Shown piece by piece: positions 44,285 through 49,250 of a stretch of DNA of 64,000 nucleotides. A program made the translations under genes and the position numbers. The stretch is taken from assembly GCF_040958695.1 (NCBI RefSeq), contig NZ_CP162599.1, forward strand, positions 1,150,001-1,214,000, in the 5' to 3' direction. The notes beneath the pieces were generated by a model, which saw only the letters and a program-made list of their open reading frames with translations, had not been told where the DNA came from and ran no database searches. Source of the stretch: Ornithinibacillus sp. 4-3 (GTDB taxonomy: Bacteria; Bacillota; Bacilli; Bacillales; Amphibacillaceae). Numbering within the stretch: position 1 is the first letter of the stretch; each line of letters begins with the position of its first letter.

Positions 44285-44656
44285 TTGAACACACATCTAC
44301 ATATTACAGCTTGGGCACTGGCTATTATCCTATTGCTTGTAGTCATTGTATTACAGAAAACAGGTAAAGCAAAAGGCGCTAAAATTACACATATGATTTT
44401 ACGCTTAGATTATCTCTTAATTTTATATTCTGGTGGATCCCTATTAACTAATTATCTTAACGGTGGTGGTCCAATGATGACAGAAGCTATTATTAAGAGT
44501 GTCGCTGGACTTTGGGTAATTGTTGCAATGGAAATGATTGCTGTTCGTACTGGTAAAAGAAAAGCAACTAAAGGTGCATGGATTCAACTTATTATCGCAT
44601 TGATTATTACAATCGCACTAGGATTCGGTAGACTTGAAGGTGGATTATTACCTTAA
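44285..44656 (+). CDS. yisL: YisL-family membrane protein (UPF0344)
   Basis: A 123-residue membrane protein with four hydrophobic helices (about 6-23, 37-57, 66-85, 97-116). HLHITAWALAIIL at the start and GALLTNYL/GLWVIVAMEMIAV-type segments match UPF0344/YisL. It starts at TTG with AAGGGGGAAA upstream. Function is unknown. A terminator follows. Confidence 0.85.
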   Translation: MNTHLHITAWALAIILLLVVIVLQKTGKAKGAKITHMILRLDYLLILYSGGSLLTNYLNGGGPMMTEAIIKSVAGLWVIVAMEMIAVRTGKRKATKGAWIQLIIALIITIALGFGRLEGGLLP

Positions 44657-44672
44657 TAGGTAAAATAAAAAT

Positions 44673-44700
44673 AGGTGTCTTAAAAGGCACCTGTTTTTTT
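44673..44700 (+). terminator. Terminator of yisL
   Basis: AGGTGTCT pairs with AGGCACCT around a short loop and runs into eight or nine T residues. Confidence 0.85.
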
Positions 44701-44967: not shown

Positions 44968-46479
44968 ATGAAAAAAATATTATCTATGTTCATGATATTT
45001 TCTATTTTCTTATTCGGACAGCCAGTAGTGGCTCAAGAACAAGAGAATAATTTAGCAGAAGAAATTATTTATAATATTATGGTAGACCGGTTCAATATTG
45101 GACATCCAGAACAGAGTGAACAAGTCGATATTCAAGACTTTTTAGCCTATCATGGTGGAGACATCATTGGAATTACAAATAAGCTTGATCATATTCAACA
45201 ACATGGGTTCACTACGATTACTATTTCATCTGTTTTTGAAAATGCAGAGAAAGGCTATCATGGATATTGGATAGAAGATTTCTATGCGGTGGAAGAGGAA
45301 TTTGGTTCATTAGAGGAATTAAAAACTTTAGTGGAAGAGGCACATAAACGTGATCTCAAGGTTGTTTTAGAACTAGTAACTAATTACGCGTCTGAGACTC
45401 ATGAATTCGTAACAGATTCAACAAAAACGGATTGGTTTAGAGAAAACACATTAGCAACAACAGAGGCGACAACTTGGCTAGATGATGTGGTGATGTTTAA
45501 CCAAGACAATCCAGAGGTACAAGAATATTTAATTGATGTAGCAGAATTTTGGTTAACAGAGACTAATGCAGATGGTTTTAAATTACATGCAGCAGATCAA
45601 TCATCACCTGCATTCTTAGAACAGTTAGTAGATGCAATTTATAATATAAAGCCAGATGCATATGTATTAGCTGGAGTTTTAGATGAACATGCTGATTTAG
45701 AAGATTTACATGCAATAGAAGGAATTAATGCAGTTGAACAAGCAGATTTATTGGAAACATTGGTTGATACATTTTCACAAGTAGATCAGCCAGTATCTAA
45801 TATTTATGAAGCTTGGGAAACAAATGGTTCTTATACAGATTTATCATATATAGATAATCAGTATACAAAGCGATTCACACATGCATTTTCAGAAAATGAG
45901 AGAAATAAAGTAACAGCTTGGAAATTAGCGCTTACTTATTTATATACAACTCCAGGAATACCTTCTATCTATCAAGGATCTGAAGTAGCAATGATTGGTG
46001 AAGGGTTTCCTGAAAACCAATATTTAGTTTTATTTAATCATAATGATAAGAACTTAACAGAGTTCTTTGAGAAAATTGCTTCATTACGTACAGAATTTCC
46101 AGCTTTACAGCATGGGGATTTTGAACAAGTTGGAGAAAATGGGGCAATGAGTTTGTTTAAACGAACGTATAATGACGAGACAATGTATATTGCTATTAAT
46201 AATGACAGTGTTTCTAGAGCTGTCCATTTGACGGATATAGATACTGACCTACAATTACGAGGTGTGATTGGGGATAATACTGTTCGCGCAAATGATGATG
46301 GAGAATTTATTGTAGGGATTGAACGTGAAGCAGTAGAAGTTTATATGGTCCAGCCAAACCAAGGATTTAACTGGTGGTTTATTGGATTTGTTGTAGGAGT
46401 GTTTATTTTATTTGTTATTTTTGTAAATGTCTTAAGCCGGAAGAGTCGCAAACAAGCGCAAGCAAATAAGAAACAATAA
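44968..46479 (+). CDS. Membrane-anchored GH13-fold protein lacking the catalytic residues
   Basis: A 503-residue exported alpha-amylase-like protein with a signal peptide (cleavage after VVAQ) and a C-terminal membrane helix (about 469-488) plus basic tail. GH13 framework is clear: IYNIMVDRFN, AYHGGDIIGITNKLDHI, GYHGYWIEDFY, AHKRDLKVVLELVTN and TTPGIPSIYQGSE. The catalytic positions are changed: nucleophile Asp is His207 (DGFKLHAAD), acid/base Glu is Gly236 (LAGVLD), the third Asp is Tyr299 (DNQY), and the region I His is Tyr140. AGAGGAG favours the ATG at 44968 over TTG 44965. Confidence 0.85.
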   Translation: MKKILSMFMIFSIFLFGQPVVAQEQENNLAEEIIYNIMVDRFNIGHPEQSEQVDIQDFLAYHGGDIIGITNKLDHIQQHGFTTITISSVFENAEKGYHGYWIEDFYAVEEEFGSLEELKTLVEEAHKRDLKVVLELVTNYASETHEFVTDSTKTDWFRENTLATTEATTWLDDVVMFNQDNPEVQEYLIDVAEFWLTETNADGFKLHAADQSSPAFLEQLVDAIYNIKPDAYVLAGVLDEHADLEDLHAIEGINAVEQADLLETLVDTFSQVDQPVSNIYEAWETNGSYTDLSYIDNQYTKRFTHAFSENERNKVTAWKLALTYLYTTPGIPSIYQGSEVAMIGEGFPENQYLVLFNHNDKNLTEFFEKIASLRTEFPALQHGDFEQVGENGAMSLFKRTYNDETMYIAINNDSVSRAVHLTDIDTDLQLRGVIGDNTVRANDDGEFIVGIEREAVEVYMVQPNQGFNWWFIGFVVGVFILFVIFVNVLSRKSRKQAQANKKQ

Positions 46480-46483
46480 AATC

Positions 46484-46880
46484 CACTTATAGAGGATGTT
46501 CAAAAAGTCCAGTAAAAATGCCGCGGTAAGCAGTGGAACTTCGACTAAGTTCCTCTCGCGTCCTGTGTCGAACGTCGAAGTCATCACATCCTATGAAAGT
46601 CGTTAGCTTGCTTTTTTGTTCCTTGAAAAAGAAAAGCACTTTTTCTGCGTGCAAGAGCGTCTGCTCATGTATTAAAACCATAGAGGAACTTCTGTTAAAA
46701 CCACCCACGTCCTGAGGGCAACACAGAAGTCACCACAACACGCGCAAGTCCGCTACTCTAAGCTGCGCTGCCTTGAACTTTCGACGGACACGATGTGCTA
46801 GTATCGGTGTTGCTCGCGTGACGTTGCGTACTTAACCGATGACTGCCCTTTTTACTGCCCTTTTTGAACACGCACTTATA
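46484..46880. mobile_element. Miniature inverted-repeat element A (381 bp)
   Basis: Terminal inverse repeats TGTTCAAAAAG (46497-46507) and CTTTTTGAACA (about 46861-46871) bound a non-coding, GC-richer 381-bp element (46492-46872). It is flanked by an exact 8-bp direct repeat CACTTATA (46484-46491 and 46873-46880), the footprint of insertion. Internal module CTCGCGTGACGTTGCG and ACTTAACCGAT is shared with the element at 52.5 kb. No transposase gene is present. Confidence 0.75.
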
Positions 46881-46942: not shown

Positions 46943-48180
46943 TTAAGATATGGATTTTCTTTTATAGATAGAAATAGTCAGGATGGTGATACCGATAAAC
47001 AATAATATACTAGCAACGAGTAGGCCTTCTAAATACATCGGGATTAAATAAATATTCATCCAAGTAGCGAGCCCCATTGCAAATAAGAACATCTCATTGA
47101 TACAGAAACCAATGAAGAAAATAATAAATCCTATCCGCATCCATTTTTGCTTCGTATCTAAAATGTCTAGCATTTGATATTGAGCCATCGTAAAGATAGA
47201 TACAAAGCCAAGCAATGTTAAATGTAAATAACCAACAATGATACTTCGAGTGTCATAGACGGAATTAGAAATGGCTGGGAAGATTAATCCAAGTTCCATC
47301 GTACTTTTTACAAGTAATAAAATAAGTGTCACATTTAACCAAAAGACAATGAAATTAGAAAAAGCATCAACCACATGCTTCCATACATTCCATAATGCGA
47401 TTAGAAGGTATAGAATACCAACCCATTGACCAACTCCACCAAGCATTGCAATAAAGGAAACATCAAAGCCTAGATCAGCCCAGAGCACAGATAATAAATA
47501 TCCAGGAATAAGTGCAATCGCATAAATCCAAAATCCAATACTAATTAATTTTGTTTGAATAGGAATATTTTTCTTCCCTAGAATGATAAGAAACATTCCG
47601 ATTAAAAAGAAGAATAGCCAACCGTTATACTGGAAATGTAAATAAAAATAAATAGCCATATCAAATAAATGTGAGTCACGTAATCCGCTAGCTACAATTG
47701 CTCCAAGTGAAAAAGGTGCCAAAGTTGAAATAAATAATGCAATTAGAGAACCTTTGATAAAAAGGGAACTCACTTTAGAAATATGTAGATTTCTTTTTAA
47801 ATGCTTATAAATAAACCAGATTACCCAATATTCTACGAAAATATGAACAGTAGATAAAATAATGGAGGATAGACCATAGCCATTGATTAGGAAAGCAATG
47901 AACATAATAATGGTTACCACAAATAAAGTAAAAATAATAAAATAGATTTCCTTCTTATTAGGAAAAGAAGTCCAGAAAACAGCAATAAAAACTAAGAAAA
48001 CACCAAGAAAACACCAAGAAAACACCAACCAAGTAAAGCGATATGTGAATGTCCATGTAATATATTTTCATAGGGAATGCTCGCTAAATGATGCTCAAAA
48101 GGCATTCCTCTCATAATTATACCCGTAAAAGCCGTAATGATAAAAAATAGAAAGGTTAAATACACAAATAACTTTGGCAT
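46943..48180 (-). pseudogene. Frameshifted polytopic membrane protein, haem-copper oxidase subunit I-like
   Basis: Two overlapping frames together make one protein of about 408 residues. The first (48180 on) begins MPKLFVYLTF and includes ILHGHSHIALLGW; it stops at 47992. The second continues as GVFLVFIAVFW through about eleven further hydrophobic helices to 46943, with His-containing segments YFYLHFQYNGW and HLTLLGF. The frame is broken by a third copy of an 11-bp repeat at 47994-48026; two copies would restore it. His-bearing helices suggest relation to cytochrome oxidase/NorB-type proteins, with moderate confidence. Confidence 0.65.
47994..48026. repeat. Three tandem copies of an 11-bp unit
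   Basis: The unit AAGAAAACACC is read three times (47994-48004, 48005-48015, 48016-48026) inside the oxidase-like coding sequence. Because 11 is not a multiple of three, each change of copy number shifts the frame. Confidence 0.75.
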
Positions 48181-48389: not shown

Positions 48390-49250
48390 TTAACGATAGG
48401 CTTTATTTAAAAAGAATAAAGCAATTGTCCCTGGCCCAGCATGTGCGCCGATAACTGCACCGACCATTTCAATCATTACTTCTTTAACTGGGAAATTTTC
48501 TTTAATCATTGCAGCGAGACTTTCAGCCTTTTCTATATCGTCTCCATGGCTGATACCAATAACTTGATTTTCAAAATCTTCTCCACGTTCTTTCATGATT
48601 GCAATCATACGGCTTAATACTTTTTTCGAGCCTCTAATTTTTTCAATTGGAACAAGCTTTCCATCATCTACATGGAGAATAGGTTTAATTTTGAGTAATG
48701 TTCCTACGAATGCAGCAGATTTACTAACACGTCCTCCGCGATATAAATACTCTAGATCATCTACAGAAAAAATATGCTCCATATGCTCAGCATGGTAAGT
48801 AGATACATCAATAATATTTTCCATCGTTGCACCTTCTAAAGCAAGTTTTGCCGCCCGAATAGCAACAAGACCATAACCGATGGAAGCACATTTTGTATTA
48901 ATAATATGAAGAGGAGCTTCAGGAAAATCTTCCTTCACTTCCTGTTCCATCATTTTTGCAGCTTGATAAGTACCTGATAGTTCAGACGAGAAAGCTAAAT
49001 AAATTAATGGTTGATTTGCTTCAGCATATTTTTTGAACAGTTCTTTAAATGTTTGTAGGGTTACTTGAGAGGTCTTTGGACTACTTCCCTTGCGCATTTT
49101 ATCATAAATTTCTTTTGGAGTAATATCAATTCCGTCACGATAATCTTCTCCATCTACATGCACAGTGAGTGGAAGCATTTCCATTTCATATTGCTTTAAT
49201 TGTGCTTGGGTGAGATCTGCAGCAGAATCTACAAGAATTTTAACATTCAT
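48390..49250 (-). CDS. DegV-family fatty-acid-binding protein
   Basis: A 286-residue two-domain cytosolic protein. KILVDSAADLT at the N terminus, SSPKTSQVTLQTF (about 56-68), LAFSSELSGTYQAA (about 85-98) and the C-terminal GAVIGAHAGPGTIALFFL are DegV hallmarks; these bind a fatty acid. In bacilli some DegV proteins act as FakB-like carriers for fatty acid kinase. Its location beside the yitU/yitV/yitW-type genes suggests equivalence to YitS. GAGGG precedes the ATG. Confidence 0.92.
   Translation of the reverse strand: MNVKILVDSAADLTQAQLKQYEMEMLPLTVHVDGEDYRDGIDITPKEIYDKMRKGSSPKTSQVTLQTFKELFKKYAEANQPLIYLAFSSELSGTYQAAKMMEQEVKEDFPEAPLHIINTKCASIGYGLVAIRAAKLALEGATMENIIDVSTYHAEHMEHIFSVDDLEYLYRGGRVSKSAAFVGTLLKIKPILHVDDGKLVPIEKIRGSKKVLSRMIAIMKERGEDFENQVIGISHGDDIEKAESLAAMIKENFPVKEVMIEMVGAVIGAHAGPGTIALFFLNKAYR

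Follow-up and report, generated by a model that had tools for sequence, protein, structure and literature searches.

Catalytic-triad replacement, probable maltose operon loss and retention of a membrane-anchored GH13_45 protein in Ornithinibacillus sp. 4-3 and its relatives

Judged from its sequence, the protein encoded at positions 44968–46479 of the window (the whole stretch of 64,000 nucleotides analysed here) is a GH13_45-type protein in which the catalytic triad is absent and the fold and membrane topology are kept. Its relatives are under purifying selection, with a relaxed barrel and a domain C whose constraint is kept; the genes of the maltose operon are not beside the gene, and the neighbours of the old place often remain. 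We think it somewhat probable that an ancestral amylase lost both catalysis and its operon and that the protein was kept for a non-catalytic task on the external side of the membrane, as a scaffold or adaptor. The features on which the argument draws are as follows.

44285–44656, + strand: DUF1516 (yisL-type) membrane protein gene, conserved upstream neighbour and synteny marker
44667–44698, + strand: terminator-like hairpin between the DUF1516 gene and the pseudo-amylase (one found, against an expectation of 0.9 from shuffling the region)
44968–46479, + strand: pseudo-amylase gene, 503 aa, GH13_45 lineage, triad positions His207/Gly236/Tyr299
44968–45036, + strand: predicted signal-peptide-like hydrophobic N-terminal segment, about residues 1–23 (model helix 2–16)
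45043–46113, + strand: TIM-barrel domain, residues 26–382, catalytic pocket relaxed (Pfam, model, dN/dS)
45385–45387, + strand: Tyr140 codon, region I His position (alignment, conservation)
45586–45588, + strand: His207 codon, nucleophile Asp position (alignment, conservation, model)
45673–45675, + strand: Gly236 codon, acid/base Glu position (alignment, conservation, model)
45862–45864, + strand: Tyr299 codon, third Asp position (alignment, conservation)
46114–46353, + strand: domain C, residues 383–462, PF22026, constraint no lower than in intact enzymes
46354–46440, + strand: juxtamembrane motif GxNW and predicted C-terminal membrane helix, residues 463–491, then a basic tail (sequence, model)
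48390–49250, − strand: DegV-family gene, conserved downstream neighbour and synteny marker

The frame opens with ATG; the list of open reading frames starts it one codon 5', at a TTG. Profile searches find PF00128 (E 1.2e-37) and PF22026 (E 4.1e-21) in the product, and phmmer matches it to 5a2b/5a2a/4e2o with E 2e-104 to 1e-97, the nearest solved structures being 5a2c/5a2a/4e2o. In the phmmer alignment, which is gap-free around the replaced residues of regions I, II and III, His207 falls on the Asp nucleophile, Gly236 on the Glu acid/base, Tyr299 on the third Asp and Tyr140 on the region I His, and the Asp/Glu/Asp triad of GH13 is absent. The region IV block IDNQYTKRFT is ungapped, with a 5-residue gap set by the aligner immediately ahead of it. 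An AlphaFold model (mean pLDDT 86.4) has residue 207 right after strand 203–206 and residue 236 right after strand 232–235, predicted positions that are as expected for a nucleophile and an acid/base. Misalignment of the catalytic regions was rejected on the basis of this alignment and these strand ends. The initial annotation had named the same four replacements and had proposed alignment and structure prediction as checks; the alignment bears it out, and the model agrees at 207 and 236. The residue content supports reading the product as a pseudoenzyme.

Descent from GH13_45 is seen in the tree, where the query is nested among intact GH13_45-type rows with the Clostridia rows as outgroup. 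Features of the subfamily, taken as described in PMC11448133 and PMC12695923, have nonetheless been lost. Of the adjacent Trp pair of helix α3 (Phe194-Trp195 in the query), Trp195 alone is kept, and the LPDlx of CSR-V is absent, the intact Leu-Pro-Asp (columns 174–176) reading Val-Val-Met. In all of these the query is unlike the GH13_45 α-amylases of Anoxybacillus and Geobacillus (GTA; PDB 5a2a-c, 4e2o), in which the triad is complete and the Trp pair and LPDlx are both present.

The replacement is shared by the query's relatives. In an order-level sample, a homologue at E 1e-45 is present in 237 of 397 genomes and 72 of 136 genera. At E 1e-20, matches occur in 147 of the 159 genomes of the query's own family; 15 of these match at 1e-26 to 1e-35 only and were taken as other GH13 proteins, leaving 132, and 27 of the 159 have no homologue at E 1e-40. 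When all 132 genomes with the gene were read, 126 held degenerate copies only, six held a degenerate and an intact copy, and none held an intact copy only, where degenerate means anything except Asp/Glu/Asp at the three columns and takes in mild Asp-Asp-Asp, Asp-Glu-Gln and His-Glu-Asp cases. Because every one of the 132 has a degenerate copy, the replacement is not a matter of chance. Across the 136 distinct non-intact pieces from these genomes (the census counts distinct pieces only), His occupies the nucleophile column in 84, Tyr in 28 and Asp in 1; Asp fills the second triad column in 100; the third varies (Tyr in 36, Phe in 17, Ser in 14, Asn in 13); and Tyr stands at the region I position in 95. 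Orthologues with the same substitutions, which the initial annotation had proposed looking for, are thus common. Source-named homologues are labelled alpha-amylase (family) proteins or cyclomaltodextrinase, and, by their residues, most should not be such enzymes.

An open degenerate frame of at least 440 aa is present in 130 of the 132 genomes, the exceptions being G021, where the frame is split, and G028, where it is cut short on a small contig. The C-terminal hydrophobic segment, which in the query consists of an aromatic-rich stretch (GFNWWFIGFV...) plus a predicted membrane helix, occurs in 179/179, 26/26 and 28/28 sequences of three degenerate groups and in 49/50 intact ones; for the N-terminal hydrophobic segment the counts are 175/179, 26/26, 27/28 and 50/50. 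These group counts leave out the Clostridia outgroups L070–L072 and the remote GH13 loci L074–L077, the conservation groups exclude sequences of 430 aa or less (the tree, those below 430 aa), L214 (His-Glu-Asp) is left out of the conservation groups and kept in the neighbour counts, and the 179-sequence clade group contains the query twice (QUERY and L078). The membrane anchor of the initial annotation is therefore present, but it is no speciality of the pseudoenzyme, since GH13_45 proteins are generally anchored: the intact relatives have the segment too, and BmaN1 is described with a transmembrane helix (PMC11448133).

In a tree of 103 rows built without the catalytic columns, the intact and degenerate states need seven changes, at least six of them forced by starred branches. 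The change count alone cannot separate gain from loss, and losses are the natural direction because the two Clostridia outgroup rows in the tree are both intact. The query lies inside a wholly degenerate set of 57 rows (96/88), its own subclade comprising 38 rows (100/100). Further degenerate lineages are the BmaN1-like one (L183, L186, L187), beside intact L204, and a Halobacillus one (L064/L207), beside intact L043; other degenerate rows fall in families f31/f22/f23/f21/f33, f40/f41, f29, f4 and f7. Intact second copies (L147–L151) occur in five g26 genomes, and L147, which represents them in the tree, lies at a distance from the query's clade, suggesting that an intact copy was acquired anew. 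A sixth, L152, groups with L209. In those five genomes the intact GH13_45-type amylase, near a malE-like gene, has not displaced the pseudo-amylase (L084, L086, L087, L100, L103). Three loci are possible decay intermediates: L214 (His-Glu-Asp), whose neighbours are a GH31-type gene and one that by eye resembles another GH13; L208 (Asp-Glu-Gln), adjoining a malE-like gene; and L176 (Asp-Asp-Asp), with malF, malG and LacI still adjoining.

Intact relatives mostly adjoin malE/malF/malG-type transporter genes (BPD_transp_1 domains) and the gene of a LacI-type regulator, and at some loci a GH31 enzyme is encoded as well; neighbour genes are named by similarity. A malF or malG neighbour is found at 44 of 50 intact loci, which are in this respect unlike the query, versus 2 of 125 degenerate unique loci. 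The flanks covered are roughly 1.5 to 6 kb long, and shorter where a contig ends; absences at loci with short flanks are therefore less certain, yet malG directly precedes the gene in intact operons. A phylogeny-aware test of the association between operon and triad, on six independent pairs from starred branches, gave a mean of 4.5 pairs the same way and 0.0 opposite (a few of the 200 pairings have one opposite); with a median p of 0.0625, it falls short of 0.05. Judged by the cre consensus, a cre-like site is present in 17 of 26 intact operons (2.6 in shuffles) versus 0/69 degenerate genes of the query's clade and 0/25 and 3/27 of the others (0.6, 0.2 and 0.2 in shuffles), the upstream zone searched being 1800 bp for intact operons and 250 bp for degenerate genes, with separate shuffles for the two. 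The group "other", with the 3/27, also holds 2 loci with malF/malG.

In the query's clade, the yisL-type gene is present at 60 of 70 loci and DegV at 39 of 70. The same kinds of neighbour occur beside intact copies (n = 50: yisL-type 2, asnB-type 6, DegV 8); intact L043 and L068 sit between yisL-type/asnB-type genes and DegV, and intact Jeotgalibacillus L056 and L059–L061 have DegV downstream. From these intact genes in matching surroundings, we infer that the operon was lost around the pseudo-amylase gene. As clues to function, the yisL-type, rocD-type, asnB-type, SDR-type and DegV neighbours were rejected, as they look like shared synteny. Given the terminator-like hairpin 5' of it, the pseudo-amylase is possibly a separate transcription unit, and co-transcription with the upstream yisL-type gene is unlikely. 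From a single sequence, the initial annotation could not show the family-wide change, its repeats in other lineages or the accompanying loss of the maltose operon.

The rest of the genome was also searched. A profile search of the query's genome finds a single PF00128 protein, profile searches for PF03632 (GH65) and PF01055 (GH31) find none, and no close MalF was found, the best being a 25% partial match. Of the 159 family genomes, 20 have a single PF00128 match, and 19 of these (all but G134) hold a pseudo-amylase homologue; in these 19, the pseudo-amylase appears to be the sole PF00128 protein, with E-values (1e-19 to 1e-42) that fit. The idea that the protein is a regulatory subunit for an amylase active in its own cell was rejected, as the query's genome has no other GH13.

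Selection was estimated by the Nei-Gojobori method, with dS taken from the whole gene, on disjoint pairs with dS < 1.1; the retained pairs are relatives, none including the query's gene, whose nearest relative is 54% identical. In 14 degenerate pairs, the median dN/dS is 0.122 for the whole gene, 0.134 for the barrel, 0.178 for residues 134–303, 0.077 for domain C and 0.117 for the juxtamembrane/anchor region, versus 0.049, 0.036, 0.041, 0.082 and 0.067 in 8 intact pairs. The barrel differs between the two sets (MWU p 6e-6), but domain C (p 0.89) and the anchor (p 0.39) do not, and residues 134–303 show the greatest loss of constraint. Dropped as saturated (dS at least 1.1) were 12 of 26 degenerate and 1 of 9 intact pairs; several of the dropped pairs joined different clades, with whole-gene dN/dS up to 0.51, and the query's one pair, L008–L078 (dS 1.41, dN/dS 0.27), was among them. 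With all pairs kept, the barrel contrast persists (p 1e-5), domain C again shows no significant difference (0.134 versus 0.077, p 0.11), but the juxtamembrane/anchor region does differ (0.196 versus 0.071, p 0.047). The ratio of protein distances, domain C to barrel, is 0.83 (1895 pairs), 0.73 (76) and 0.74 (30) in degenerate groups and 2.03 (792) in intact proteins, for pairs with a barrel distance of 0.25–0.9, which overlap and are therefore not independent. The equal constraint on domain C in intact and degenerate proteins may come from folding alone. The initial annotation had held that the gene is not simply decaying and had proposed dN/dS as a check on constraint; in close pairs of relatives, the query's own gene being outside the retained pairs, the value of about 0.12 is far below 1, and with the open frames and the kept topology it upholds that claim.

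With fold and topology kept, the cleft relaxed, domain C constrained, the operon and cre-like site gone, and the protein kept where no other GH13 was found, a non-catalytic surface protein fits better than glucan handling. The ancestor would have been a membrane-anchored GH13_45 α-amylase encoded in a maltose operon, and the ancestor of the query's family would have lost catalysis along with the operon genes; the protein would then have been retained because it does something other than catalysis on the outside of the membrane. It could act as a scaffold or adaptor held at the cell surface by its anchor, using domain C and the GxNW segment next to the membrane to make contact with a partner, perhaps a wall polymer or another membrane protein, while the dead barrel would form a large, stiff head. 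The structural or receptor-like role suggested by the initial annotation may be close to this reading. Several points stand against it. First, Tyr140, His207 and Asp210 are well conserved in the query's clade and would be needless for a pure scaffold. Second, the association between operon and triad rests on few independent events (the six pairs). Third, BmaN1, in which a single triad residue remains, is reported to be active (PMC5347038, PMC11448133).

The first of these points bears on an alternative, in which the floor of the old subsite −1 has turned into a new site, for catalysis or for binding a ligand or metal, made up of His98, Tyr100, Trp101, Asn139, Tyr140, His207 and Asp210. In the query's clade, Tyr140 is 95%, His207 88% and Asp210 93% conserved, and His98, Tyr100, Trp101 and Asn139 94–99%; in barrel conservation, Asp210 is at the 72nd percentile and the other six are at the 84th–99th. 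Such conservation keeps a re-purposed pocket in play for this clade, but pocket positions 236, 298 and 299 drift, the other degenerate groups are without the conserved set, and residues 134–303 are the least constrained part of the protein, so we consider it unlikely. The glucan-binding role raised in the initial annotation, through the cleft or the aromatic C-terminal segment, could draw on the retained His98, Tyr100 and Trp101 and on the report that the C-terminal region of BmaN1 helps raw-starch binding (PMC11448133). Through the cleft, however, it fares poorly, as cleft constraint is largely gone, the same three positions and position 205 drift in the clade and the genome has no other GH13, GH31, GH65 or close MalF (the search being limited to these), and the C-terminal segment is a predicted membrane helix; we regard glucan binding as improbable.

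Degenerate GH13_45 proteins are already in print. Sarian et al. 2017 (PMC5347038) reported BmaN1 of Bacillus megaterium, with Lys202/Glu231/His294, as active, and a small group (Nos 28–34) in which all three positions are substituted "without an obvious regularity"; a 2025 paper on BaqA (PMC12695923) reports that no more than 140 of 1091 GH13_45 entries meet the criteria. BmaN1 and Nos 28–34, as described there, share with the query the GH13_45 lineage and a broken triad, and Nos 28–34 may include the query's clade. The C-terminus printed for BmaN1 differs at one residue from that of L184 and at two from that of L183, and in the tree the BmaN1 lineage lost its triad separately from the query's. 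BmaN1 is reported to hydrolyse starch, at 8.4 U/mg when partially purified (PMC5347038), and the query might likewise be a weak amylase with a shifted mechanism. The BmaN1-group signature (Lys-Asp nucleophile, Glu acid/base, His third) is absent from the query, however, which has His-Ala, Gly and Tyr: it is without even the Glu that BmaN1 keeps (Glu231), and residue 207 is followed by no adjacent acid (HAAD; the next is Asp210), making activity of this kind very improbable. That the gene is dying and retained by lag alone, as dN/dS above that of intact copies, a broken second copy in G150, the split sole copy in G021 and the family genomes without a homologue might suggest, is hardly credible against a dN/dS far below 1, the open frames, and the retained signal segment and anchor. 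Among openly licensed PMC texts, we found no paper on the query's clade, nor any on family-wide conservation, repeated losses, operon coupling or domain-wise selection.

The nearest functional parallel that we know of is 4F2hc (SLC3A2), the heavy subunit of heteromeric amino acid transporters, which is described as having a GH13-like domain that is anchored in the membrane, lies outside the cell and has none of the three catalytic acids (PMC8537225). Like 4F2hc, the query would have, by its predicted topology, a single membrane anchor and an extracellular GH13 domain without catalytic acids. Unlike the query, which is anchored at its C terminus and has no known partner, 4F2hc is a vertebrate protein with its anchor ahead of the ectodomain and a covalently linked transporter partner, and the likeness is presumably convergent. 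More tentatively, and with some doubt on our part, the membrane GH13_45 amylases of Bacillales might carry an ancestral second, non-catalytic role, exposed on several independent occasions alongside loss of the maltose operon, with the dead head acting, as in the SLC3 heavy chains, as partner or chaperone of an envelope component. That most relatives retain the protein suggests such a second, non-digestive job for these bacteria's membrane amylases. Whole lineages have repeatedly held on to a dead, membrane-bound amylase once its operon was gone, a natural experiment separating catalysis from a second function, and the family genomes seemingly without another GH13 form a list of organisms in which to seek that function by deletion.

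Some further observations concern individual loci. BmaN1-type L183, L184, L186 and L187 keep an adjoining LacI-type regulator, with no malF/malG found; L183 and L186 also have an upstream gene that by eye resembles one for an ammonium transporter. The homologue is in two open pieces at L162 (the second copy in G150) and L267 (the sole copy in G021), and two full-length degenerate copies are present in G148 (L126 and L163) and in Virgibacillus oceani (L041 and L066). A siderophore-uptake-like block (by eye, a binding protein and two permeases) separates the pseudo-amylase from the yisL-type gene, or from the site where that gene would be, in L006, L021, L022, L024, L028, L030, L035 and L066; it occurs in Lentibacillus and some Virgibacillus, with an FAD-oxidoreductase-like gene in 5 of the 8. 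In the window, a 361-aa membrane-type protein with no Pfam match (46943–48028, −; cluster c22, 8 loci) is encoded between the pseudo-amylase and DegV, and several relatives have it too. Two copies of Bacillaceae-1 RNA (RF01690; 46529–46597 and 46679–46746, +) lie just 3' of the pseudo-amylase, and the stretch 46490–46760 has 48 matches, including itself, across the query's genome and is a dispersed repeat.
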